From contig CAMBLP010000070.1 in NCBI GenBank assembly GCA_945868195.1, positions 1 to 11,166 on the forward strand: a DNA stretch of 11,166 nucleotides. The letters run 5' to 3'. The DNA comes from Bordetella parapertussis (GTDB lineage: Bacteria > Pseudomonadota > Gammaproteobacteria > Burkholderiales > Burkholderiaceae_B). Below the pieces are notes generated by a model. That model ran no database searches. It saw only the letters and a program-made list of their open reading frames with translations, and was not told the origin of the DNA. Shown piece after piece: positions 1 to 10,707 of the stretch (position 1 is its first letter; every line of letters begins with the position of its first letter). Position numbers and translations under genes: made by a program.

Positions 1-336
1 ATTCAGGCGGGGCGTATCAAGGGCATCGGAGTATCGAGTGCAGCACGCGCTTCTTCGCTTCCTAATTTGCCGACATTTATCGAACAAGGTCAAAAAGACT
101 TTATTTTGAATTCTTGGGTTGGCATCCTTGCGCCACAAAAAACACCTGCCCCCATCATTAACAAGTTGAATGCAACGCTCAACGAGGTGTTGCGTGATCC
201 GGTGGTTGTTGAGCGTCTTCTGAAACTTGGGGTGACGCCGATGCCAGGAACGCCAGCTCAATTTGGTGCCGCGATGAAAGCAGATTTAGCCGATTTCGGT
301 AAAGTGGTCAAAGCTGCCAAAATTAATCAAAAATAA
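1..336 (+). CDS. Bug-family tripartite tricarboxylate transporter substrate-binding protein, C-terminal part (5' end outside window)
   Basis: The reading frame is open from the first base and ends at TAA 334-336, giving the last 111 residues of a protein that is usually about 320 residues long; signal peptide and first lobe lie outside the window. The segment shows the family's C-terminal pattern: LPTF, then SWVGILAP, then TPAPIINKLN followed by a helix with LRDP, LGVTPMPGTP, and a final amphipathic helix. Bug proteins are periplasmic receptors that bind carboxylates or related small acids, either for TctAB permeases or as orphan receptors. No tctA or tctB gene is visible here, so whether this one is an orphan cannot be decided. 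The next gene starts 18 bases downstream in the same frame, which suggests an operon. The ligand is unknown; the nearby carboxylate-processing genes suggest an organic acid. Confidence 0.93.
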   Translation: MQAGRIKGIGVSSAARASSLPNLPTFIEQGQKDFILNSWVGILAPQKTPAPIINKLNATLNEVLRDPVVVERLLKLGVTPMPGTPAQFGAAMKADLADFGKVVKAAKINQK

Positions 337-354
337 GTACTTCCAGTTTTAACT

Positions 355-1029
355 GTGTTGAAACTCCGACGCAACTGGCCGAGAATTGATCCAACGCTGC
401 TGTGTAATTTTGGCGGATTTTCCTCGAGCCAGTTGAGTGACGCGCACTCTGAGTGTGGAGTGATAGGTTTACCGATCAAACGACTTCATGGAAAAGGCGT
501 CATCCTGGGGACAGCGCTGACTGTTTCCACTGCTGGGGCGGCTGATAATTTGGCGCCTTATGCTGCGCTTAAGTTTGCGCAGCCTGGAGATATTGTTGTG
601 ATCGCTAGTCAGTCGTGTGACTCAAGCGCCCTGATCGGCGACAACCTTGTAGGGTTAATGCGAAATGCGGGAGTCGTCGGCGTCATTACCGATGGATTGG
701 TGCGCGATGCAGTGGGACTAGGCCACATAGGATTGCCCATTCATGCGAGAGGGCATTCACCTAAAGCGCCTACCAAGCAAGGACCCGGAGCGGTTGGTTT
801 GCCGATTCAGCTTTCTGGAGTCACGATTGAGTCGGGCGATTTTGTGATCGCTGATGAGGACGGTATTGTGGTTGTTGCGCCTTCGTTGCTCTTAGAGATA
901 CTTGAAAAGCTCCAACATATTCAAAGTAAAGATCAGATAAAAATGGATTTAATCAAATCCGGTGGAACGCTGCCTCCTGATCTTGACGCGTTGCTTGATC
1001 GTGTCGGTATGGATTGGCAGGAAAAGTAA
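355..1029 (+). CDS. RraA-family protein (HMG/CHA aldolase-like lyase)
   Basis: A 224-residue protein of the RraA/dimethylmenaquinone-methyltransferase-like fold, whose enzymatic members are metal-dependent aldolases and oxaloacetate decarboxylases acting on 4-hydroxy-4-methyl-2-oxoglutarate and related acids. The core signature is clear: G95-D96-N97, then R117-D118 about twenty residues later, with the C-terminal strand DEDGIVVV at 167-174. In the aldolases the arginine binds substrate and the aspartate helps hold the metal through water. The usual acidic residue three positions after that aspartate is G121 here, so classical aldolase activity is not certain. The start is GTG 355 (TTG 358 also possible); there is no in-frame ATG between the upstream TAA and here and no evident Shine-Dalgarno, so translation may depend on coupling to the Bug gene. 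The following gene begins two bases after the stop. Family assignment is firm; substrate unknown. Confidence 0.88.
   Translation: MLKLRRNWPRIDPTLLCNFGGFSSSQLSDAHSECGVIGLPIKRLHGKGVILGTALTVSTAGAADNLAPYAALKFAQPGDIVVIASQSCDSSALIGDNLVGLMRNAGVVGVITDGLVRDAVGLGHIGLPIHARGHSPKAPTKQGPGAVGLPIQLSGVTIESGDFVIADEDGIVVVAPSLLLEILEKLQHIQSKDQIKMDLIKSGGTLPPDLDALLDRVGMDWQEK
1019..1022 (+). promoter_or_regulatory. Shine-Dalgarno fixing the BKACE start
   Basis: AGGA within the last codons of the RraA-like gene, nine bases before ATG 1032. It supports ATG 1032 over the in-frame TTG at 1014 and shows the two genes are translationally linked. Confidence 0.6.
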
Positions 1030-1031
1030 AA

Positions 1032-1919
1032 ATGCAAAAACTGATCATCGAGGTACGCGTAAACGAGTACACCATGCGGCATGAAAATCCCCACGTACCT
1101 TGGTCTGCTAAAGAGCTAGGCGTGACTGCGCAAGAGATTCAAAGCGCTGGAGCAAGCATGGTCCACTTTCATATGAGAAAGACTGATGGAGCACCTGCGC
1201 ACGGTTTAGATGCCTACGAGGAGGCGGTGACTGCGATCAGAGCGCACTCCGGACTGTTAATCAATCCTACGCTGGGTCAAATCACGGTCGGTGGCAGTCT
1301 CGACAGAATCCAACACTTGGAGCATTTCAAGGATCGCCCCGATTTACTGCCGGAAATTTGCGGCATTGATCCTGGTTCAACTAATATTGATACCTATGAT
1401 GCAGCTTCAAAATCTTTTAAGACCTTGGACAAAGTGTACGTGAACGCCCACGAGACACTACAACTTTTTACGCAACGTTTTAAAGCGTTAGGAATCAAGC
1501 CGGCTTTAGCGTGTTGGAGTATCCCGTTTTTGCGCACGAGCGCCGCTTTGATAGAGATGGGTTTGATCGATCCACCTCCCTATTTCACTTTCATTTGTAC
1601 AGAGGGCGGTGTGATGGGCGGTCACCCAGCCACCCCTCAGGGTTTGCGTGCATACCTGGACCACTTGCCAAGTACAACGCCTCCCGTCTGGTCGGTATGT
1701 TGCAAGAGTGGAAATCTTTTGCCACTTGCAATGACAGCGATTGAGCAGGGTGGCCATGTTGCCATCGGAATCGGTGACTATGCTTATCCAGAGCTGGGAT
1801 ATCCAACGAATGCCGCCTTGGTAGACGAGGTTGTTAAGCTTGCCAGGCTCGTTGGCAGAGAAATCGCATCGCCTCAAGAAGCGCGCGAGATGTTGGGCAT
1901 TGCAAGCCCCTCTAGTTGA
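1032..1919 (+). CDS. Beta-keto acid cleavage enzyme (BKACE/DUF849) family protein with divergent metal site
   Basis: A 295-residue TIM-barrel protein of the DUF849 family, whose founding member (Kce of lysine fermentation) condenses a beta-keto acid with acetyl-CoA and splits it to acetoacetate plus a CoA ester. Family marks are AGASMVHFHMR (39-49) with zinc-ligand histidines H45 and H47, TEGGVMGG in the middle, SVCCKSG, and a C-terminal TNAALV...GREIASPQEAR block. The usual RVGLED motif reads AIGIGD at 244-249: the metal-ligand Glu is G248 and the substrate-binding Arg is A244, while D249 is kept. This marks a distinct subgroup, so the reaction may differ. ATG 1032 is chosen because AGGA 1019-1022 lies nine bases ahead; a TTG at 1014 is in frame but poorer. 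The gene follows the RraA-like gene by two bases and is surely co-transcribed with it. The downstream side is convergent. Confidence 0.9.
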   Translation: MQKLIIEVRVNEYTMRHENPHVPWSAKELGVTAQEIQSAGASMVHFHMRKTDGAPAHGLDAYEEAVTAIRAHSGLLINPTLGQITVGGSLDRIQHLEHFKDRPDLLPEICGIDPGSTNIDTYDAASKSFKTLDKVYVNAHETLQLFTQRFKALGIKPALACWSIPFLRTSAALIEMGLIDPPPYFTFICTEGGVMGGHPATPQGLRAYLDHLPSTTPPVWSVCCKSGNLLPLAMTAIEQGGHVAIGIGDYAYPELGYPTNAALVDEVVKLARLVGREIASPQEAREMLGIASPSS

Positions 1920-2064
1920 GTCAGCAGCCAGAGGGGGCGCAACGAGATCACGCAGATTACATATCAGCGTGCTTGCGGTCGAATTCCCATACTGCTTCAA
2001 ACCCCATCAGTTGACTAAACTTTTTGAAGTCATAGAGTTGTTTGAGTACAGATTGCGATGAACC
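1920..2064. other. Convergent intergenic gap, no clear terminator
   Basis: About 145 bases separate the ends of the + strand group and the long - strand group. I see no GC-rich stem followed by a T-run on either strand. A short TGACT/AGTCA dyad flanks an A/T-rich loop near 2011-2031, but it is too weak to call. No open frame with family likeness lies here. Confidence 0.5.
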
Positions 2065-2835
2065 TTACTTGAGAAGGGTACCGTACACTTGCTCAAGAAT
2101 TTGACCGACTGCTAAAAAGGCGGTCGCAGGATGGATAGCGATTTTGAAACCCATTTTTTCAAGTTCGGCTTTTGAATGGACGGGTGTTTTGCCACCTTCG
2201 ACAACGTTGATCAGTAAGGGTTTTGTGAAACTCTTTCCTATTGTGATCATTTCATCTGTTGACTCTGGAGCTTCGACAAATAGAATATCGGCACCGGCTT
2301 CAGCGAAAGCATGCGCCCGATCCAAGGCTTCGTTCAGGCCATGAGAAGTCCGTGAGTCCGTGCGCGCAACGATCAAAAAATCGTCATGTCGACGCGCTTC
2401 GCAAGCGACTTTGATTTTGTTGACCATATCCTTGAGAGGAATGACGCGGCGCCCCGGCGTGTGGCCACATTTTTTTGGAAACTCTTGATCCTCGAGTTGA
2501 ATGCCTGCAACGCCAGCCGCTTCGTAACCTTTGACAGTATGGGCAACGTTTAATAGACCGCCATAGCCCGTATCGGCATCTGCAATGAGGGGTTTCTCAC
2601 AACCCTGCGCGATCGTACCCGCACGATTGAGCATCTCCGTATAGGACGCCAGTCCCGCGTCTGGCAGACCTAAATACGAGGCCACCACGCCGTAACCTGT
2701 CATATACAAGACATCAAAATCCATTGAGTCTGCAAATTTTGCTGAAATCATATCGAATACGCCGGGGGCAACGATGAGTCCTGGCTCTGAAAAGCGTTGT
2801 TTCAAGCGTTTGCGTTTGTCTGCTGCATCAATCAT
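2065..2835 (-). CDS. Isocitrate lyase/PEP mutase family lyase (2-methylisocitrate lyase- or dimethylmalate lyase-like)
   Basis: A 256-residue TIM-barrel lyase of the ICL/PEP-mutase superfamily. It shows PGVFDMISA (24-32), the substrate loop region GLPDAGLAS (56-64), the magnesium site DADTGYGG (86-93), QLEDQ (113-117) and the mobile catalytic loop KKCGH (121-125) with C123, which marks true C-C lyases rather than PEP mutases or phosphonatases. Family members split 2-methylisocitrate, 2,3-dimethylmalate or similar hydroxydiacids to pyruvate or a 2-oxoacid plus a dicarboxylate. It is somewhat shorter than PrpB (about 290 residues), lacking the C-terminal helices used in subunit swapping. A good AGGAG (complement of 2846-2850) precedes the ATG by nine bases. 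It is the last gene of the - strand group, 46 bases after the CoA-transferase. The MmgE/PrpD gene across the window would be a natural partner as in the methylcitrate cycle, but no citrate synthase homologue is present, so the substrate is probably something else. Confidence 0.93.
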   Translation of the reverse strand: MIDAADKRKRLKQRFSEPGLIVAPGVFDMISAKFADSMDFDVLYMTGYGVVASYLGLPDAGLASYTEMLNRAGTIAQGCEKPLIADADTGYGGLLNVAHTVKGYEAAGVAGIQLEDQEFPKKCGHTPGRRVIPLKDMVNKIKVACEARRHDDFLIVARTDSRTSHGLNEALDRAHAFAEAGADILFVEAPESTDEMITIGKSFTKPLLINVVEGGKTPVHSKAELEKMGFKIAIHPATAFLAVGQILEQVYGTLLK

Positions 2836-2881: not shown

Positions 2882-4093
2882 TCAAATCACACCAGCATCG
2901 ATAAGTTGCTGCAGTTCTTGATCAGAAAGCATTAGTCTACCGTGATAAATCTCTTCGTTATGCGCGCCAAGCGCCGGACCAAGAGAATTTACGCGTCCGG
3001 GCGTTCCAGACAGTCTAGGTACAATGTTTGGAATCGCTAGCTGCCCCGCGCGTTGATCATCAAAATATAAGATATTTTCTCTCGCCGCGTATTGCGGATC
3101 TTCGAAGATTTCGTCAATCCGGTAAACAGGACCACAGGGGACTTGAAAGTCCTCGCAGATATCGATGAGCGTGTTTCGAGAATGGGACTGTGTCCATGTT
3201 GCGACAGTCGCATCAACCTGAGCGCGTTCAGTATCGCGCCGTTTAACCAGTCCCCAGCGGTCTGGCAAAGCAAGGTCTGGTTGTCCCATTGCTTGCGCGA
3301 GGCGCTCAAAGATTTTGTCGCTTGTACAAGCGATGGCAAGCCACTTTTTGTCGGCCGTTGGATAATGATTGTGAGGAACGACATTCACCGTCCCTGAGCC
3401 CATGCGTTCTCGTACGAAACCACTGCGATGGTAGGCGGGGGCGAGTTCATCCAGAATCCGGAATATTGGCTCGTAAAGACCGATATCGATGATTTGTCCG
3501 ACGCCTGATTTTCGGAGCGCCTCGAGCGCGACCATGACGCCAAAAGCACCAAAGACGCCCGCGAGATAGTCTGGTAGTGTTGCCGATCCTGGCGTAACAG
3601 GGGGCTGATCGGGGAAGCCCGCTAAATAAGATAGCCCCCCAAAGGCATTGCCAATACGACCAAAACCCGGCCGATGTTTATAAGGGCCCGTTTGGCCATA
3701 GCCGGAAATGCGCAGCATGATCAGTTTAGGATTGGCTGTTTTCAATACATCCCAGCCAAGACCCCATTTCTCTAGGGTGCCAGGTTGGAAGTTTTCTATG
3801 AGTACATCTGTTTGCGCCAAGAGCCGTTTAAAAAGCTCCGCTCCCTGCGGTTTGCGCAAATCTAATGTGATCGATTTTTTATTGCGCGCCTCTGATAACC
3901 ATGGCAATGAGTCGCCACATTCGGTCATCGTGCCAAATTTTCTTAGGGGATCACCGCCGGTTGGTAATTCGAGCTTGATCACTTCGGCGCCAAATTCACC
4001 AAGCTGAACCGCGCAAAAGGGGCCTGCGATGAAGGTGGATATGTCGACAACTCGCAAGCCTCCAAGGGCTTGCGGTGTGGGTGTCGTGGTCAT
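2882..4093 (-). CDS. CaiB/BaiF family (family III) CoA-transferase
   Basis: A 403-residue family III CoA-transferase, the usual length. These enzymes move CoA between carboxylic acids through an aspartyl-CoA intermediate and form interlocked dimers in the cytoplasm. Seen in order: LGGLRVVDIS (10-19) with AGP, the EFGAEVIKLE block (33-42), ARNKKSITLDL (69-79), ENFQPGTLEKWGL (100-112), ISGYGQTGP (129-137), the catalytic aspartate in ATLPDYLAG (D175), and a C-terminal GPVYRIDEIFEDPQ segment. All expected active-site elements are present. It probably activates a dicarboxylate or hydroxy acid produced by the upstream hydrolases for the MaoC or lyase steps; donor and acceptor cannot be read from sequence. 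The isochorismatase-like gene ends 21 bases ahead. No Shine-Dalgarno is evident before its ATG, so coupled translation is likely. Confidence 0.95.
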   Translation of the reverse strand: MTTTPTPQALGGLRVVDISTFIAGPFCAVQLGEFGAEVIKLELPTGGDPLRKFGTMTECGDSLPWLSEARNKKSITLDLRKPQGAELFKRLLAQTDVLIENFQPGTLEKWGLGWDVLKTANPKLIMLRISGYGQTGPYKHRPGFGRIGNAFGGLSYLAGFPDQPPVTPGSATLPDYLAGVFGAFGVMVALEALRKSGVGQIIDIGLYEPIFRILDELAPAYHRSGFVRERMGSGTVNVVPHNHYPTADKKWLAIACTSDKIFERLAQAMGQPDLALPDRWGLVKRRDTERAQVDATVATWTQSHSRNTLIDICEDFQVPCGPVYRIDEIFEDPQYAARENILYFDDQRAGQLAIPNIVPRLSGTPGRVNSLGPALGAHNEEIYHGRLMLSDQELQQLIDAGVI

Positions 4094-4114: not shown

Positions 4115-4744
4115 TTACTTCTTTTTAAGCGAAGAGAAATATGCAAGAGACTCTTTGGAGGTAAGCAGATCTGCATATTTTTGACCCATGTCGAAGATAC
4201 TGGCGTTATGCGGACCCTCTGCGCGATCACCCACGCAATCCGTCACGATCATGGGTCTCAAGCCATAAGCGGAAGCGTCAATCGTACTGGCACGTACGCA
4301 CCCGCTTGTCGTGCATCCGGTAATGAAGAGTGTATCGGCACCGACAAAGCTGAGCCAAGAGGCCAGATTCGTTCCAAAGAATGCCGAGCTATGACGCTTG
4401 ACCGAGACCCATTCGCCTTTTTTAGGTTTGACGCTATCAACAAACTGAGCGTTTTTAGAGTCAGGCGATAGTTTTTTAAGCGAGGGAACTTTGATCGCGA
4501 AAGTACCAATATCGACGCCATCGCATTCAGATGCAAAGCGAACGTGGGCAACGGGAATCTTGGCTGAACGAGCGCCTTTTAGAAGCTTAGCTGTATTGGC
4601 GATTGCTTCGTTGATGTTGAAGCCACCGAATACATCAGCGTTGGAGAATCCAACCTGGAAGTCGATAATCAGAAGTGCTGGTTGGCGCCCAAAACCGATT
4701 TTCTGACCAAATTGTTGTCTTTTATAAACATCAAGATCTGACAT
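4115..4744 (-). CDS. Isochorismatase-family cysteine hydrolase (N-carbamoylsarcosine amidohydrolase-like)
   Basis: A 209-residue cysteine hydrolase with the complete triad: D28 in ALLIIDFQ (23-30), K116 in VKRHSSAFFGT (115-125) and C149 in ITGCTTSGCVRAS (141-153), where the cis-peptide precedes the GCTTSGC loop. The extended N-terminus containing GFGRQPALL and the TTSGCVRA nucleophile loop are typical of the N-carbamoylsarcosine amidase, maleamate amidohydrolase and related C-N hydrolases, not of the isochorismate-cleaving enzymes. It most likely hydrolyses an amide or carbamoyl bond to ammonia (plus CO2) and a carboxylate, in the cytoplasm. Its place between a TRAP transporter and a CoA-transferase gene supports a role in freeing an acid for CoA activation. 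GAGGAG (complement of 4750-4755) precedes the ATG by about five bases, so this gene is strongly initiated within the operon. Substrate unknown. Confidence 0.93.
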   Translation of the reverse strand: MSDLDVYKRQQFGQKIGFGRQPALLIIDFQVGFSNADVFGGFNINEAIANTAKLLKGARSAKIPVAHVRFASECDGVDIGTFAIKVPSLKKLSPDSKNAQFVDSVKPKKGEWVSVKRHSSAFFGTNLASWLSFVGADTLFITGCTTSGCVRASTIDASAYGLRPMIVTDCVGDRAEGPHNASIFDMGQKYADLLTSKESLAYFSSLKKK

Positions 4745-4800: not shown

Positions 4801-6096
4801 TCATCGAATCGCAAACAGCGTGATGGCAGGGAAGGCAATCAGAAGACCGACGATGATGATCTCCATAATAAAAAACGGCATGACGCCTTGAAAAATTTCT
4901 CGGACGCTGATTTGTGGATTAGTCGTGGCCACTACAAATACATTGAGACCCACAGGTGGTGTGATGCAGCCGATCTCCGTCATTTTCACAACCAAGATCC
5001 CAAACAAGACTGGATCGATACCTGCTTGTTTAACGATAGGAAAAACAACTGGCATTGTCAAAAGAATCATGGAGGCAGCATCTACAAAACAACCTAAAAT
5101 AAGGAACGGAATTAACAGACAAATAAGTAAAACGACGGGGTTAAGGTTGAGTCCGACTGCCCATGCGGCAAGGCTCTGGGGGAGCTGTGTGACCGCAAGG
5201 GCCGCACTGAACACACCTGCACCAACAATCAGAAAGAAAATGGATGCTGTGCTGGCCCCCGATGATTGAAGTCCTGCCTTAATTTCCATCCAACTCGTTC
5301 CTCGATATAGGGCAATACCAAGAGCGACAAATGCACCAATTCCGGCTGCTTCACTGGCGGTCGCGATGCCGGTGTAGAGTGTGCCCATTACTGCAGTGAA
5401 AATTAATAAAATTTCCCAAGATGAAAAAGTAATCTTCAGGCGTTCGCGGTAACTCATTCGAGGCTGCACCGTCAGCGACTTCATTTTTGGGTCACGTTTG
5501 ACCATCACCCAAATACCGATTGCGTAAACAAAAATAGTTAGAATCCCAGGTACGACTCCTGCGATGAATAGCTCCGGTATTGGAGTCTCCGTTGCAATCG
5601 AATAGAGCACCATGATGGTAGAGGGCGGGATCAGAACTCCTAGAGTGCCACCAACCGCTACGCACGCGCCTGAGAGTTGTTTTGAATAGCCTGCCTTGAG
5701 AAGCTCAGGTATGGCTATTTTAGAAACGGTTGCTGCCGTGGCAATCGAAGAGCCTGATACCGTTGCAAATGCCCCGCACGCTACAACCGCGGAGGTTGCA
5801 AGACCCCCCGTGAAGTGACCGATCCATGCCCTGGCGGCTTGGAAGCCTTTGGCTGAGATTCCAGCCGAATAGGCCATGTGACCCATGAATAAAAATAGGG
5901 GGATGACAATGAAGGCAAACTCGGCAGTAATCGAATAGGGTAGGGTACCCAGCAAATAGTCGGCAGAGCGCCAACCATTCATCGCTAAAATTCCAATCAA
6001 TCCTGCTGAAAGTAATGATAAAGCGATGGGAAACCCCAGTGCTAAAAGCCCAAACAGGCCAAGTACTAAAAGCGTTCCTTGCTCGGTTGGACTCAT
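4801..6096 (-). CDS. dctM: TRAP transporter large permease subunit DctM
   Basis: A 431-residue, very hydrophobic protein with about a dozen membrane segments, the usual length for the large TRAP subunit. It carries the family's SGSSIATAAT (114-123), GTLGVLIPPS (150-159), the VDAASMILLTMPVVFPI segment (338-354) and TPPVGLN (379-385). The last is part of the ion and substrate path in the elevator domain. With DctQ it forms the inner-membrane sodium-driven symporter that accepts substrate from DctP. Its ATG overlaps the dctQ stop in ATGA (complement of 6093-6096), ensuring coupled translation and fixing the start. The isochorismatase-like gene follows after 56 bases with its own strong ribosome site. 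Confidence 0.97.
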   Translation of the reverse strand: MSPTEQGTLLVLGLFGLLALGFPIALSLLSAGLIGILAMNGWRSADYLLGTLPYSITAEFAFIVIPLFLFMGHMAYSAGISAKGFQAARAWIGHFTGGLATSAVVACGAFATVSGSSIATAATVSKIAIPELLKAGYSKQLSGACVAVGGTLGVLIPPSTIMVLYSIATETPIPELFIAGVVPGILTIFVYAIGIWVMVKRDPKMKSLTVQPRMSYRERLKITFSSWEILLIFTAVMGTLYTGIATASEAAGIGAFVALGIALYRGTSWMEIKAGLQSSGASTASIFFLIVGAGVFSAALAVTQLPQSLAAWAVGLNLNPVVLLICLLIPFLILGCFVDAASMILLTMPVVFPIVKQAGIDPVLFGILVVKMTEIGCITPPVGLNVFVVATTNPQISVREIFQGVMPFFIMEIIIVGLLIAFPAITLFAIR

Positions 6097-6656
6097 AGTC
6101 TAGACTCACCCAATTCATCACGAATTTCAGTTTCGAGATCCACGGCATAGGGATGCTCGCCTTTAATAGCAAACTCGAGCGCTAACATAATCGTTTGAAT
6201 CACCAGAATAGAGAAGCCTAGTGCAACAAGCGTTCGGCTTGGCCAAAGCGGAATCTCCACCATGCCAATGGCGACTTCTTCACGCGTAAAAGAGTAAATC
6301 GCACTACGCCAGGTAAACCACGCCAGCATTGCGATCACTGCTAATTGAAGCGCAAGCAATGTCCATGCAATTGGCGTACCAAGCCATCTAGGAAAGGCAT
6401 CCGCGATGATCGAAACGCGAAAGTTTTCCCTTAAGGCTAAGGTTGAGGGCAAGCCAAAAAAGATGAGCGCCAAAAGCAGCAAGACACTGATCTCCAAGAC
6501 TCCCCAAATCGCCACGCCCGCCATGCCTCTCAGCATGGCGTCGGCGACCACCCCAATCATCAGTGCGATGATTAAAAGACCGGTAAAACGAGCCAGCACT
6601 TTACAAAAAGCGCCGGATCGTTCAGTCAGTCGGATCAGTTGGTCGCGGCGACTCAT
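6093..6656 (-). CDS. dctQ: TRAP transporter small permease subunit DctQ
   Basis: A 187-residue membrane protein with four predicted helices (about 24-44, 52-75, 94-116 and 139-162), the DctQ pattern. The conserved amphipathic link after helix two reads LRENFRVSI (75-83), corresponding to the family's usual E-H-V/R-V segment, and the last helix is introduced by IPLWPSR (135-141). It is the scaffold that holds DctM in the inner membrane. Both its ends overlap neighbours by four bases (ATGA): with dctP upstream and dctM downstream, so the three subunits are translated together. The C-terminal tail of about 25 residues is acidic and presumably cytoplasmic. Confidence 0.93.
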   Translation of the reverse strand: MSRRDQLIRLTERSGAFCKVLARFTGLLIIALMIGVVADAMLRGMAGVAIWGVLEISVLLLLALIFFGLPSTLALRENFRVSIIADAFPRWLGTPIAWTLLALQLAVIAMLAWFTWRSAIYSFTREEVAIGMVEIPLWPSRTLVALGFSILVIQTIMLALEFAIKGEHPYAVDLETEIRDELGESRL

Positions 6657-7741
6657 TTTCCTTTCTTAGCCAAGAAGCGATCAACGCCTGTCACGTAAGG
6701 AGATTCTTTTTCATACTTGCGGACCAAGGCAATATAGCTATCGACCAATTGCTGGCCATTGGCACCATTTCGAGCTGCTTTGTCCAGGTACTTTTTCATG
6801 ACAGCCTCATTGGTTGCGTCGCGCCAGCGCTTTGCCTCCGCCGCATCTAGAGTACTGACCTGTACTTTGGTGGACTTGAGTAAGATATCGACGGACTTAT
6901 CCGCTTCCTTGCTCTGTTCGCTCACATAAAACATCAGTGCATCATTGGCTGAGCTTGTGAAAATATCTTGAAGCGGTTTAGGGAATGAATTCCATTTTTT
7001 AAGGTTAATACCCGTGACCACTGTTGCAAAGATACCCATGCGTGCAGCGTTTGAAAGGTGGTTCACCATGTTGGGTAGACCATCCATGACACCTTGTTCA
7101 AAAGGTGTGGTGGAAATGGCATCCACACCACCACGCGACAACAAATCGATCGCGTCTGTATAGGGAACAGTGACAGCCGTCGCGCCGAGTGCGGTCAGGA
7201 CTTCAGCTGGGCCGAGCAGTGTGCGGATACGCATACCTTTCAGGTCTGCTGCGGTATTGATTTTTTTCATGCTCCAGAGAACGTTCTCAGCGGCAGGCAG
7301 TGAGAGCAGCATATGGACGTCGTTTTTCTTGAACTCATTCTGAACAGCAGGAGTGGTGTTGTACCAGTCACGAAATGCCATACTCGCAGCACCTGGATTT
7401 TCAGTGACGAAGGGCAGGGTGATATCAGAGATCGGGTACTCGCGTGGATTAAAGGCGGCAGGTACCGTGAATCCGATGTCGACCACACTGCGGCTAATGC
7501 CAGGGAATACGTCCGTCGCTTTGAGCAAAACACCGCCGTAGAACCATTCGAATGTAACTTTGCCGCCGGTTTTTTTTGTAACTTGATCGAAGTAGTGTTG
7601 TTGAACACGGCTAAACAAGGACGTGGCAGGATAGTTAGACGCAACTTTGAGTTTCATTGGCTTGAAATCCTGCGCGACGGCAGGCGCACTGGCTATCAAG
7701 CCGCCGATCAGCAGGGACGCCAGAAAGTTTCTTTTTTTCAT
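6653..7741 (-). CDS. dctP: TRAP transporter substrate-binding protein DctP
   Basis: A 362-residue periplasmic receptor with a clear signal peptide: KKR at 2-4, a hydrophobic stretch, and a likely cut after A23 (AVA-QDF). The mature part shows the DctP fold: a first strand LKVASNYPA (31-39), FYGGVLLKATD (67-77), SRSVVDIGF (83-91), and the binding-arginine segment LKGMRIRT (167-174), where R173 corresponds to the arginine that grips the ligand carboxylate in most family members. An acid ligand is therefore expected. AAGGAG (complement of 7752-7757) lies about ten bases before the ATG. It opens the dctP-dctQ-dctM set, and the amidase gene sits 82 bases upstream on the same strand. The ligand may be an amide-bearing or hydroxylated carboxylate, judging only from neighbours. 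Confidence 0.94.
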   Translation of the reverse strand: MKKRNFLASLLIGGLIASAPAVAQDFKPMKLKVASNYPATSLFSRVQQHYFDQVTKKTGGKVTFEWFYGGVLLKATDVFPGISRSVVDIGFTVPAAFNPREYPISDITLPFVTENPGAASMAFRDWYNTTPAVQNEFKKNDVHMLLSLPAAENVLWSMKKINTAADLKGMRIRTLLGPAEVLTALGATAVTVPYTDAIDLLSRGGVDAISTTPFEQGVMDGLPNMVNHLSNAARMGIFATVVTGINLKKWNSFPKPLQDIFTSSANDALMFYVSEQSKEADKSVDILLKSTKVQVSTLDAAEAKRWRDATNEAVMKKYLDKAARNGANGQQLVDSYIALVRKYEKESPYVTGVDRFLAKKGK

Positions 7742-7823: not shown

Positions 7824-9167
7824 TCAGGCTGGAAAGACGGGCTCCCTCAGATGGTGATTCGTGACTTGTTGAAAAGCATGCCCAAGCCTCAGTACGATTT
7901 CCTCGGCAAATGGAGCAGCGGCAAGCTCCATGGAAAGAGGCATGCTATTTTCGGTAAAACCGCAAGGTAAGGCCAGGGCAGGCGCACCAGCGGCTGCAAA
8001 CACAGAGGTAAACTTTGGAATGGCCCGAATCGCATTGCTGTAATCCATGCCTGCAATCTCGGGCGCGGGAAATGGAACGGTTGGATGCAGCATGGCGTCA
8101 ACCGAATGCCAGACGCGCTCAAGACGGAGTTGAAAATTTTCAATCCAGCGTAAGGCTTCAGCGTATTGCGCGCCAGTGACATTTTTCCCGATTTCGTATC
8201 GGATTAAAAGATCTTGGCCATAATCTTTGCGCCTAAGCGCCAATTGCTTTTCGTGCATGGCATAGGCATCGGCCAGAATAATGCGAAACCCTAGCATCTG
8301 CTGTGCGTTCTCAACGTCACCCAAATCAATATCGACGATATCGACGCCCAGGTCGCGATAGATGCCGATGGCTTTTTCTAAGCTGAGTTTCAAGTCGGGA
8401 TGAATATCGTCAAAGAACCATCGTTTCATCACGCCAATGCGCATCCCTTTAACGGGATCGTTGAGGCGACGCGTGACCGCGGGGACGGGACGATCGATCG
8501 AGTATGCGTCGCTAGGATCATGTCCCGCGATGACTTCAAACGTGCGCGCTACATCTGAGACACGACGCGCCAACGGACCCAGGCTATCAAAGCGGGCACT
8601 CACCGCCACACTGCCGCTGCGTGAAATGCGACCGGTTGTGGGACGCAGACCTGCTAGCCCATTAAACGCGGCAGGTATGCGAATGGATCCGCCTGTGTCA
8701 CTACCAATCGATACCACGCTCATGCCAGCAGCCACCGAGGCGCCAGAGCCGCCACTTGAGCCGCCTGCGAAACATTTTAAATTCCAAGGATTTTTAACTG
8801 GACCAAAGTGCTGGCTTTGGCTGGTCGGTCCAAATACCCATTCGTGCAAGTTGGCCTTGCCTGTCAAGACAGACCCTGCTGCCAATAACCGATCGACGAT
8901 AAAGGCGTTTTGGGTGGGTCGACTGTCTTTCAAGATAATCGATGCGGCGGTCGTAGGCGTGCCCACCCAGTCTATGTTGTCTTTGAGCGAGACAGTGACT
9001 CCACCGAGTAATCCTGACCATTCGCCCCGATTTGTTAAATCATCAATACGTTGCGCACAGGCCAAGGCCTCAGTCGTTGTGACGGTCAGCATGGCATTAA
9101 GCGTTGGATTCCAACGCTTAATCTGCGATAAGGCGTGTTGAACACGACTCTGTGCTGTGTACGTCAC
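7824..9167 (-). CDS. Amidase signature family hydrolase
   Basis: A 447-residue amidase-signature enzyme with the full Ser-cisSer-Lys triad: K62 in VSLKDNID (59-66), cis-serine S137 in GGSSGGSG (135-142) and nucleophile S161 in DTGGSIRIP (157-165); the 24-residue distance between the two serines is the family norm. It hydrolyses an amide to an acid and ammonia or an amine. It is unlikely to be GatA of the tRNA amidotransferase because no gatB or gatC is nearby and its setting is catabolic. The start is GTG 9167, supported by AGGAG nine bases ahead; an ATG just upstream is out of frame and stops at once. Two in-frame TGA codons end the gene. It lies 54 bases after the glutaredoxin-DinB gene and 82 before dctP, so it probably acts on a compound imported by this TRAP system. 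It has no signal peptide, so it should be cytoplasmic. Confidence 0.95.
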   Translation of the reverse strand: MTYTAQSRVQHALSQIKRWNPTLNAMLTVTTTEALACAQRIDDLTNRGEWSGLLGGVTVSLKDNIDWVGTPTTAASIILKDSRPTQNAFIVDRLLAAGSVLTGKANLHEWVFGPTSQSQHFGPVKNPWNLKCFAGGSSGGSGASVAAGMSVVSIGSDTGGSIRIPAAFNGLAGLRPTTGRISRSGSVAVSARFDSLGPLARRVSDVARTFEVIAGHDPSDAYSIDRPVPAVTRRLNDPVKGMRIGVMKRWFFDDIHPDLKLSLEKAIGIYRDLGVDIVDIDLGDVENAQQMLGFRIILADAYAMHEKQLALRRKDYGQDLLIRYEIGKNVTGAQYAEALRWIENFQLRLERVWHSVDAMLHPTVPFPAPEIAGMDYSNAIRAIPKFTSVFAAAGAPALALPCGFTENSMPLSMELAAAPFAEEIVLRLGHAFQQVTNHHLREPVFPA

Positions 9168-9221: not shown

Positions 9222-10007
9222 TCAACTTTCTATCTTCTCATCGTCCCACACTTTCTGCGGCATTGGCAAGCCTTCAAAAGTTTCTGGTGGAATCGGACGA
9301 TCGACCCTCACGGATAAACCCTCGAGCACCCACATCAGCTGCCTGGCATGCTGCGCGCTGTGCCAGACCGTTCTTTCCAGAAATTGATGTTGATTTTGAT
9401 CGCCATAATAAACATCAGCTTTTTGTTTCCAGCCATATTGTTGACCAGGACCATCAAACCATTCAGCGACGATTTTCTGAACATGTCGAAGGTAGCGAAG
9501 CATGACTTCGCGACCATTTTCCGTAGGACCCGGAAACCGGTTATACGATGCAAACGTCAAGGGAATGCCGTCTTTCTCTTCTAAAAAAGCATCCGCATTA
9601 TTAAAGATGTGATAGACGAGATCGGTGTAGCTTCTCGGACGGTTCGGAAGCATCGAGTGCAATGCTGAATCTGGAAGTTGCTGATAGAAACGTTCGGAGG
9701 ATTCGAGCACCAACATTAAGCGCCGTCTCAACTCATCGACGGGAAGCATGTTGAGATTGATGCCCTGAATACCCACTAAGTCAGCGACATCTTTAAGGAC
9801 TTGGCCATTAGCCCATTTTTTTCCCTTTGTCACGATCGGCACTTGACGAAGACCAAATTCAGCCAACTCTTCAAACGCTTTGGGGTCGCCTAATACATTG
9901 CGAGATTCAAACGGAATGTCGTAGCGCGTTAAAAACTCTTTTGTTCTTAGGCAGCTCGTGCAGCCAGGTTGCCAGTAAACACGAATGACGTCTGCTGCAA
10001 CATTCAT
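9222..10007 (-). CDS. Glutaredoxin-DinB fusion protein
   Basis: A 261-residue protein in two parts. Residues 7-80 form a glutaredoxin/thioredoxin-like domain: strand VIRVYW, redox motif C16-T-S-C19 after QPG, the cis-proline loop RQVPIV (P57), and a C-terminal helix ending DLVGI. Residues about 92-235 form a DinB-type four-helix bundle with metal-ligand histidines H133 (LVYHIFNNAD) and H216 and H220 (WHSAQHARQL), the usual H...HxxxH trio. DinB-fold proteins include mycothiol- and bacillithiol-dependent transferases and maleylpyruvate isomerase; proteobacteria use glutathione instead. A glutathione-linked metalloenzyme or self-reducing thiol transferase is therefore a reasonable inference, but no activity can be named. 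It is the first gene of the - strand group and abuts the divergent control region. GGGGA lies about seven bases before the ATG. No signal peptide is seen, so it should be cytoplasmic. Confidence 0.92.
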   Translation of the reverse strand: MNVAADVIRVYWQPGCTSCLRTKEFLTRYDIPFESRNVLGDPKAFEELAEFGLRQVPIVTKGKKWANGQVLKDVADLVGIQGINLNMLPVDELRRRLMLVLESSERFYQQLPDSALHSMLPNRPRSYTDLVYHIFNNADAFLEEKDGIPLTFASYNRFPGPTENGREVMLRYLRHVQKIVAEWFDGPGQQYGWKQKADVYYGDQNQHQFLERTVWHSAQHARQLMWVLEGLSVRVDRPIPPETFEGLPMPQKVWDDEKIES

Positions 10008-10123
10008 TTTTTGTCCCCATTTAAGTCTTGATTAGAGAATTTAATGTCATTATGTCCGAAATTCTGTGAAGCAAACTAGCATTCTTTTTTCGTACGGGTT
10101 TCTACTATCAGGAAATTACTAGA

Positions 10124-10138
10124 TTCTATACTATAGAA
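10124..10138. promoter_or_regulatory. Perfect 7-1-7 palindrome over the -10 region (possible operator)
   Basis: TTCTATACTATAGAA is a perfect inverted repeat of seven bases around a central C. It contains TATACT (10127-10132), five of six matches to the sigma-70 -10 box, so a protein bound here would block the promoter. No convincing -35 box is found 16-18 bases upstream, which suits an activator-dependent or weak promoter. The symmetric TCTATA...TATAGA also fits the loose T-N11-A pattern of LysR-type sites, though that pattern is very permissive. Confidence 0.45.
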
Positions 10139-10139
10139 G

Positions 10140-10157
10140 ACTTTGTCCGGACAAGGT
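10140..10157. promoter_or_regulatory. 18-base near-perfect palindrome TTGTCC-GGACAA with flanks (probable operator)
   Basis: ACTTTGTCCGGACAAGGT pairs at eight of nine positions, with a perfect 12-base core (10143-10154). It begins two bases after the first palindrome, about where transcription from the TATACT box would start, a typical repressor position. The GT...AC half-site symmetry is like operators of GntR-family (FadR/FCD) regulators, which often control acid catabolism and TRAP transporters; this assignment is inference. Confidence 0.5.
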
Positions 10158-10188
10158 GATAAACTTTTTAAAACATCACAATCGCTTA

Positions 10189-10707
10189 ATGAGTAACGAG
10201 ACAATGGAAATTCTTAAAGTGGGTCCTAATCGTTATCGCGCTAGCTACGGTCGTTACCTTGAGGACTTTGAGATCGGCGCGACCTATGAACACCGTCCGG
10301 GACGCACCATTACGGAAACGGACAATATCCATTTCTCTTTGCTGACGATGAATATGCACCCGATGCATTGTGATCATCATTTCGCTGCAAAAAGCGAATT
10401 TGGCCAACCTTTAGTCAATAGCGCTTTTACTCTGGCTGTTGTAGTCGGCATGACGGTAAACGATGTGAGCGGCAAGGCAATCGCTAACCTTGGCTGGAAA
10501 GACATCAATTTGCTTGCTCCAGTATTTGCAGGCGACACGCTGTATGCAGAGTCTGAAGTGTTAGAAAAGCGAGAATCTAAAAGCCGTCCCACACAAGGCA
10601 TCGTCACCGTGCGGACACGTGGCTTCAAGCAGGATGGAACAGAAGTGATCAACTTTGTTCGTTCGGCACTCGTACCAAAGCGCGGTCATGGCGTGGGTGA
10701 TACGTAA
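10189..10707 (+). CDS. MaoC-family (hot-dog fold) acyl-CoA hydratase/dehydratase
   Basis: A single hot-dog domain protein, 172 residues from ATG 10189. It shows GRYLEDFEIGATYEH (21-35), GRTITETDN (38-46), the hydratase motif region LLTMNMHPMHCDHHFAA (51-67), EFGQPLVNS (70-78), then NLGWKDINLLAPVFAGDTL and SRPTQGIVTVRTRG. The last two belong to a well-spread subgroup of enoyl-CoA-type hydratases related to mesaconyl- and itaconyl-CoA hydratases. Catalytic H60 is present, but the Asp of the usual GD-x-NP-x-H motif is N55 here. Start choice is uncertain: GTG 10156 would overlap the palindrome, ATG 10204 is also possible, and none has a strong Shine-Dalgarno. It probably adds or removes water on a CoA ester made by the CaiB-type transferase across the divergent region. 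The MmgE/PrpD gene follows after 44 bases. Confidence 0.88.
   Translation: MSNETMEILKVGPNRYRASYGRYLEDFEIGATYEHRPGRTITETDNIHFSLLTMNMHPMHCDHHFAAKSEFGQPLVNSAFTLAVVVGMTVNDVSGKAIANLGWKDINLLAPVFAGDTLYAESEVLEKRESKSRPTQGIVTVRTRGFKQDGTEVINFVRSALVPKRGHGVGDT

Follow-up and report, generated by a model that had tools for sequence, protein, structure and literature searches.

The stretch of DNA analysed here (the window: 11,166 nucleotides, positions 1 to 11,166 of contig CAMBLP010000070.1, assembly GCA_945868195.1, deposited as Bordetella parapertussis) carries an operon whose first gene encodes a protein in which a glutaredoxin-like domain is fused to a DinB domain (Table 1). A preliminary description of the window had reported this two-domain layout, with a CxxC motif and an intact histidine trio, at the head of an uptake and degradation operon. 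The layout was confirmed by fold comparison, by a match to PF00462 and by the conservation of the histidines in 125/125 aligned sequences, and amidase, transporter and isochorismatase genes do follow the fusion gene. Beyond that description, comparison with relatives revealed a probable selenoprotein branch of the family, which makes both the active-site residue and a redox role testable.

Table 1 Positions of the fusion gene, its parts and the neighbouring features in the window
Feature	Position	Strand	Basis or remark
Glutaredoxin-DinB fusion protein, 261 residues	9222..10007	-	Operon's first gene
Glutaredoxin/NrdH-like domain, residues 1-81	9765..10007	-	Pfam and structure matches
C16-T-S-C19 redox motif	9951..9962	-	Codon of C16 is TGC in the window; 28 relatives have TGA there, probably for selenocysteine
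DinB four-helix-bundle domain, residues ~86-242	9282..9752	-	Fold comparison
H133, putative metal ligand	9609..9611	-	Invariant in 125/125 aligned sequences
H216xxxH220, putative metal ligands	9348..9362	-	Invariant in 125/125 aligned sequences
Divergent intergenic region between operon and MaoC gene, presumed promoter region	10008..10155	.	Position only
Amidase-signature enzyme (PF01425), second gene	7824..9167	-	Pfam; 54-bp gap
Tripartite ATP-independent periplasmic (TRAP) transporter solute-binding protein DctP	6653..7741	-	
TRAP transporter small subunit DctQ	6093..6656	-	
TRAP transporter large subunit DctM	4801..6096	-	Named from reading of the open reading frame and from its place, no model scan
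Isochorismatase-family amidohydrolase	4115..4744	-	Nearest solved structure by sequence 3ot4/3uao (NicF), E 3e-50
CoA-transferase family III	2882..4093	-	
Isocitrate lyase/phosphoenolpyruvate mutase superfamily lyase	2065..2835	-	
Divergent MaoC hydratase, similar to RipB/Ich	10156..10707	+	E 3e-65, under family cut-off

The structure predicted for the fusion's open reading frame (ORF) had a predicted local distance difference test score (pLDDT) of 90.8 and a predicted template modelling score (pTM) of 0.87, and the check by structure prediction proposed in the preliminary description found the DinB fold present. This fold was revealed by fold comparison only, since a PDB sequence search with profile A1 gave no DinB chain among 42 matches up to E 10. 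With the four-helix bundle and the conserved trio of putative histidine ligands, the protein shows two features of the DinB/S-transferase-like (STL) superfamily. C19, P57, H133, H216 and H220 were invariant in all 125 full-length aligned rows, and position 16 was either Cys or TGA throughout the aligned relatives. The N-terminal part has the thioredoxin fold, the CxxC motif and Pro57; PF00462 covers residues 9–61 above its gathering score in the Pfam scan, and residues of about 5–84 superposed on 3zit, 7c10 and NrdH structures in the fold comparison. The best-scoring NCBIfam model was NrdH (E 3e-10, versus 0.0057 for Grx3), although NrdH TIGR02194 stayed under its cut-off (40.1 versus 85.75 bits), as did the classical glutaredoxin model Grx3 TIGR02181 (16.9 versus 90 bits). 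Among solved structures, the domain was closest by sequence to Spx (E 3e-6) and NrdH (4e-4). Alignment by eye placed V70-L71 of the window's G68-Q69-V70-L71 at the Asp pair of GG-x-DD, which we take to be the glutathione-binding motif of classical glutaredoxins. By these comparisons, the glutaredoxin part resembles NrdH, YruB and Uxx-star proteins more than classical glutathione-binding glutaredoxins. The proposal of a glutathione-dependent counterpart, made in the preliminary description, is weakened accordingly; because of this likeness and the replaced Asp pair, binding or recycling of glutathione by the protein is unproven.

Of the 126 distinct regions, 28 have TGA at residue 16 and the remaining 98, the window included, have TGC or TGT; the window's own protein is thus a Cys form (codon 16 TGC), without the UGA of a selenoprotein. 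The TGA was first met inside six distant relatives, at residue 16 every time, and the sole other internal stop in the listed rows was the terminator of locus L106 itself, at 257. With start codons picked by our own rule, the TGA is codon 12 to 20 in 25 TGA-form genes, several of which have a Shine-Dalgarno-like stretch ahead of the start. A changed genetic code was ruled out, because TGA is the true stop codon of 11/25 of the same genes. Three TGA forms (L041–L043) are 46–47% identical to the window protein and fall inside the starred 45-row set that holds it, and since their place in the tree is separate from that of the main TGA clade, position 16 has switched between Cys and selenocysteine (Sec) more than once; the tree holds four state changes at this residue, of which at least two are forced by starred branches. 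The Cys and TGA forms of the fusion occur together in one genome, G827 (L113 and L166).

Downstream of the TGA, 25 of the 28 regions contained a hairpin with eight possible pairs at nucleotides 33–51, counted from the T of TGA, and a loop of GUG (once GGG). Standard pairs made up 91.8% of the hairpin cells, compared with at most 58.7% when the partners were slid by 1 to 3 columns. In the 3' helix, three pairs were changed on both sides, which was reached by 11/500 shuffles and compares with at most one pair in the slid versions, and the covariation score exceeded that of all 500 shuffles, which do not keep kinship. The number of doubly changed pairs was unexceptional when this helix and the first helix (nucleotides 15–31) were combined (reached by 137/500 shuffles and by slid versions). 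At least seven of the eight pairs form in 23/25 TGA regions and six in L101 and L134, and none of the 98 Cys regions reached seven (the best, six). Codons within the hairpin are conserved, that of residue 29 being CGT in 24/25 TGA regions and mostly a His or Asn codon in Cys genes. Minimum free energy was lower in the TGA regions (28) than in the Cys regions (98; p 2e-5; z-scores, p 7e-4), and the corresponding region of the Cys-form window had a folding z of −1.0. For the family, a selenocysteine insertion sequence (SECIS) stem-loop 3' of the UGA is thus a prediction, the candidate hairpin being present in 25/28.

Comparison of the host genomes revealed that the TGA form goes together with the selenocysteine machinery. 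We tested 55 genomes, 26 with a TGA form (G827 also has the Cys form) and 29 with the Cys form only; in counts that ignore kinship, as does the Fisher test, the selenocysteine synthase SelA scored over its cut-off in 25/26 TGA-form versus 4/29 Cys-only genomes (G602, G603, G725 and G445; p 2e-10), tRNA-Sec reached at least 65 bits in 24/26 versus 5/29, and SelB, in a smaller set (n = 23), scored over its cut-off in 9/9 TGA-form versus 0/14 Cys-form genomes. The 65-bit split is our own choice and uses the empty interval from 53.5 to 66.1 bits, since the library cut-off of 47 was passed in 45/55 genomes; we think that those passes come from other long tRNAs. One Cys-form genome, G445, has SelA and a SelB 0.75 bits under the cut-off. 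Genome G007 (L028) contains a high-scoring tRNA-Sec and neither SelA nor SelB over cut-off, perhaps a relic, and G881 has SelA and a TGA form, yet no tRNA-Sec match of 65 bits or more. Since they have this machinery, the UGA-containing relatives very probably read the codon as selenocysteine, and many relatives are probably UxxC selenoproteins. A probable Sec at position 16 in turn makes C16 most likely a redox nucleophile.

The family is mainly proteobacterial. The protein database search yielded 2134 proteins at E ≤ 0.001 among 2494 candidates; the architecture search suggested in the preliminary description thus found a layout that is not rare, and the idea that the fusion is rare or window-specific was ruled out. 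The species-representative genome set contained 290 relative-encoding stretches, the best 80 of which supplied the loci from that set, and 14 plasmid records contained a relative (13 with at least 80% query coverage). Matches at E ≤ 1e-20 were present in at least 32/385 genomes of the class of G009, a Hyphomicrobiaceae metagenome-assembled genome (MAG); this is a lower bound, because the class draw scored at most six candidates per genome. The TGA form accounted for 19 of the 32 matching genomes in this class-wide Alphaproteobacteria draw. Matches occurred in 3/249 genomes of the order of G009 and in 12/150 genomes of the family of G003 (G500 as two contig-end pieces; three more rows were short or weak). 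The phylum draw around G001 gave 2/398 genomes, G001 included, plus 12 rows of short glutaredoxin-like matches. The titles of the MAGs with L038, L059, L002 and L034 (Chloroflexi, Nitrospira, Bordetella parapertussis) seem at odds with their position among proteobacterial sequences, possibly owing to binning or naming errors. An unannotated stretch of a Nocardia plasmid (NZ_CP089213.1, L110) matches residues 4–111 with 32% identity (E 3e-6).

Many database entries appear to begin downstream of the UGA, at the leucine that follows C19, which may be why the Sec form has been overlooked. Of the 120 entries listed for a search with the 25 TGA-form proteins, 44 begin at the leucine that adjoins C19 (MKLKEFLS, LKLKEFLS and similar starts) and, because the start was placed there, have no redox motif; 74 contain CxxC and two are of other kinds. 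These leucine starts were judged from the protein records rather than from DNA; examples are P0230, a Reyranella soli 'glutaredoxin domain-containing protein', and P0131, a 'DinB family protein' of an Acetobacteraceae MAG. The leucine codon, four codons past the TGA, is CTG in 17/25 TGA loci. No NCBIfam model for the glutaredoxin-DinB layout turned up, the most frequent models being NrdH, YruB and Uxx_star, which P0001 and L149, the proteins with scores shown, matched below the cut-offs. A 2026 inventory counts 119 selenoprotein families (PMC13188914); its Table 1 lists no family with a DinB domain, and DinB is absent from the main text. The word was likewise not found in the available text of the deep-Sep paper (PMC12013277) or of a 2022 review (PMC9312934). 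We could not find the selenoprotein branch described, nor any glutaredoxin-DinB fusion or DinB selenoprotein, among the papers listed from the open-licence literature, as judged by titles and the starts of abstracts, which to the same extent agrees with the earlier remark that no enzyme of this layout has been characterised.

The operon in the window suggests what the Cys form may act on. Its isochorismatase matched NicF (3ot4/3uao) best, at E 3e-50 over 204 residues, compared with E 1e-39 for N-carbamoylsarcosine amidohydrolase, and the Asp/Lys/Cys triad of NicF could be matched by eye in the ORF. NicF is described as a maleamate amidohydrolase with the triad Asp29/Lys117/Cys150 (PMC5806882). 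The sole Roseomonas isochorismatase tested (L019) was closer to N-carbamoylsarcosine amidohydrolase (E 3e-46) than to NicF (5e-39), so that maleamate as the substrate is not assured; maleyl-type or related amides and acids are a fair guess and no more.

An isochorismatase gene was present within six genes of the fusion in 26/43 loci at 51% identity or more, 0/41 at 39.5–51%, 1/15 among other Cys forms (a group that includes L146, a fragment without residue 16) and 1/28 among TGA forms. In 19 loci of the window's clade, the gene immediately upstream, on the same strand, encodes a NicF/carbamoylsarcosinase-like isochorismatase; the gap, measured with called starts, is −4 to 39 bp in 18 of them, and in L173 it is 46 bp, measured to where the match begins or ends. 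The catabolic link is thus a feature of the nearer relatives. A role in the window's pathway for the entire family was ruled out, since an isochorismatase was near in 2/84 loci outside them. The link to catabolic genes drawn in the preliminary description thus holds for the nearer relatives, and the wider family is spread without it, which is half of what that description had named as counting against its claim. Note that neighbours were taken from home-made gene callers, BLAST clusters and Pfam/NCBIfam scans of representatives, not from curated annotation, and that cluster names such as 'aconitase' and 'LLM' were checked only for scanned members. The first caller dropped 34/81 focal genes to false antisense ORFs and the second dropped L032, L045 and L046; the third was given the focal gene.

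Amidase, TRAP transporter and isochorismatase genes are common to Zwartia vadi (L001) and L002–L005, and most Roseomonas-type and Kiloniellales loci contain a Dpp ATP-binding cassette (ABC) transporter, the isochorismatase and then the fusion gene. Aconitase-cluster subunits directly follow the fusion gene in L021, L025, L026 and L030 (LeuC-like in L025, the one scanned), and aconitase/LeuCD-cluster (LeuC-like) neighbours recur in the separate branches of L171 and L172. In the Belnapia relatives L027–L029, L031, L033 and L181 (L036 is similar), the fusion gene is followed by a luciferase-like monooxygenase (LLM)-class oxidoreductase, an enoyl-CoA hydratase and TctC, with a divergent DctP, an arrangement unlike the other operons of the same clade. 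In Z. vadi, the stretch that separates the MaoC gene from the operon (L001, 8957–9940) encodes a LysR regulator that is absent from the window. Positions 67–2000 (plus strand) of the window contain a TctC-like tail (named by reading), an RraA-like aldolase and a beta-keto acid cleavage enzyme (BKACE), which together make up another catabolic cassette, convergent with the operon; an RraA-like gene also lies beside the isochorismatase in L007. In the TGA-form loci L149, L160 and L163 the fusion gene is followed by two small conserved ORFs (about 110–126 and 88 residues), for which no Pfam match was found in L160, where a glyoxalase-like protein and a TctC-cluster protein are encoded upstream. 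The N-terminus of the window's isochorismatase (MSDLDVYKRQ) was considered as a remnant of what we presume to be the Nextera sequencing adapter and rejected: the pattern had no match in the window and, one base shorter, none in 181 loci. The similar start of the Zwartia isochorismatase (L001) at the same place also counts against it.

We infer that the family members are redox enzymes. For the window's protein, we put the chances at about even that a metal held by the DinB histidine trio binds a substrate which the position-16/C19 pair reduces, the protein being the Cys member of a family with UxxC relatives. In this mechanism a divalent metal, held by the trio, would bind a small substrate and polarise it; the substrate could be an electrophilic carboxylic acid or amide, or the thiol adduct of one. 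Position 16, as thiolate or selenolate, would attack the substrate and take up an oxidising equivalent or a thiol group as a mixed (seleno)sulfide, C19 would resolve this to an internal disulfide or selenenylsulfide, and the C16/Sec16-C19 pair would be re-reduced by glutathione or thioredoxin. In the window and its nearest relatives, the pathway may import an amide or organic acid and open it with the amidase and the NicF-like amidohydrolase, in which case the fusion's step would probably be reductive or dethiolating, on a maleyl-type intermediate. The substrate probably varies, because other family members sit in other contexts. To the broader proposal we give somewhat less than even chances: an unrecognised selenoenzyme family with a metal-bearing DinB catalytic domain and an attached selenol/thiol redox arm acting on metal-bound substrate, its Sec form commoner in the Alphaproteobacteria that have the protein, its Cys and Sec forms exchanged at least twice, and its Cys form built into amide/maleyl-type catabolic operons in the window's branch.

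Several observations weigh against this interpretation. The pathway as drawn needs no redox step, and the main TGA clade is only 33–42% identical to the window protein. The first helix downstream of the TGA is weak (71.4% standard-pair cells), and the folding energy of the single hairpin is unexceptional in L082, L131, L135 and L042 (z −0.4, −1.0, −1.0 and −0.5; L043, −2.5). L131 prefers another fold, and L041–L043 do not contain the shared hairpin (2–3 of 8 pairs) and have a different one nearer the TGA. No SelA was found in the TGA-form genome G564 (2.8 Mb), and the link between TGA and SelA amounts to two independent contrasts on starred branches, or four on the best tree, too few for a sign test to reach 0.05.

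We consider it unlikely that the protein acts on maleyl-type compounds as a glutathione-dependent isomerase or S-transferase, with the DinB metal activating glutathione for addition to a double bond and the glutaredoxin part binding or recycling the thiol. For an isomerase whose thiol is regenerated, a CxxC would be superfluous and selenocysteine even more so; the glutaredoxin part is NrdH/Uxx-star-like, without the Asp pair that we presume to bind glutathione. The L019 isochorismatase leaves maleamate in doubt, and the wider family is without isochorismatase-type neighbours. The isomerisation suggested in the preliminary description is a possible role. That 28 sequences probably have Sec in place of C16 favours redox chemistry by this residue over the holding of a cofactor.

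We regard it as rather improbable that the protein serves general thiol-redox or metal/electrophile defence and has hitch-hiked into catabolic operons, a reading that suits the loci outside the window's clade, where no tallied neighbour family is near in most. The commonest neighbours there are clusters of CoA-transferase III and short-chain dehydrogenase/reductase (SDR; 6/41 each at 39.5–51% identity) and the LLM-oxidoreductase cluster (8/28 TGA-form loci), and TGA forms also lie beside an ArsR/low-molecular-weight-phosphatase protein (L042), a chromate transporter (L162) and a ferric-reductase-like protein (L158). In the window's clade, however, the isochorismatase directly upstream in 19 loci and the two transporter types that go along (Dpp ABC and TRAP) suggest a pathway role. 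Still less probable is an isomerase in which C16 or Sec16 is a built-in cofactor that adds to the double bond of the metal-held substrate, so that the bond turns and the thiol leaves; maleate isomerases do attack the double bond with a Cys nucleophile, the Cys or TGA at position 16 would fit, and the neighbours suit maleyl-type acids, but the invariant C19 (125/125) is left unexplained. That the TGA forms are pseudogenes, sequencing errors or products of other recoding is very improbable, since the missing SelA match in G564 faces a TGA at the same residue in 28 genomes or records, a frame kept beyond it, a conserved hairpin and the Sec machinery.

If the redox interpretation is correct, the function to look for is that of an enzyme coupling a DinB metal site to a thiol/selenol pair, and the named operon, with its transporter, amidase and NicF-like amidohydrolase, narrows the search for the substrate. 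The family would be a new selenoprotein family, absent from the 119-family inventory, where no other family has a DinB domain, and its public database entries often start late. With paired Cys and Sec forms, both present in G827, what selenium contributes to a single active site can be tested directly.

Among known systems, the DinB/YfiT (STL) superfamily, which includes the BstA bacillithiol transferases, mycothiol S-transferase and mycothiol-dependent maleylpyruvate isomerase, showed 8–16% identity in the DinB rows of the fold comparison. The window protein differs in its fusion to a redox domain, and its metal binding and thiol transfer are putative; its hosts belong to what we take to be glutathione-making groups. 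The Uxx-star/HUGP/GUXX-star selenoproteins and selenoprotein glutaredoxins share the thioredoxin-fold domain with U/CxxC, and 25/25 TGA forms matched the NCBIfam models Uxx_star, NrdH and YruB at E ≤ 0.001, although the scores with Uxx_star, NrdH and HUGP models were far below cut-offs where shown (P0001 and L149). Among solved structures and NCBIfam models, the N-terminal domain comes closest in sequence to NrdH redoxins and Spx/ArsC-like proteins; in contrast to NrdH, the fusion has two domains, and no ribonucleotide reductase gene was named among the neighbours scanned. The glutathione S-transferase (GST) fold (GST, SspA and MglA) superposed with a root-mean-square deviation of 3.8–6.0 over 116–150 residues and 8–13% identity in six rows (a seventh, 3lyk, over 77 residues at 2.6). 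Because of these values the likeness is at most a convergent layout, the C-terminal domain of the fusion being DinB and not GST-C.
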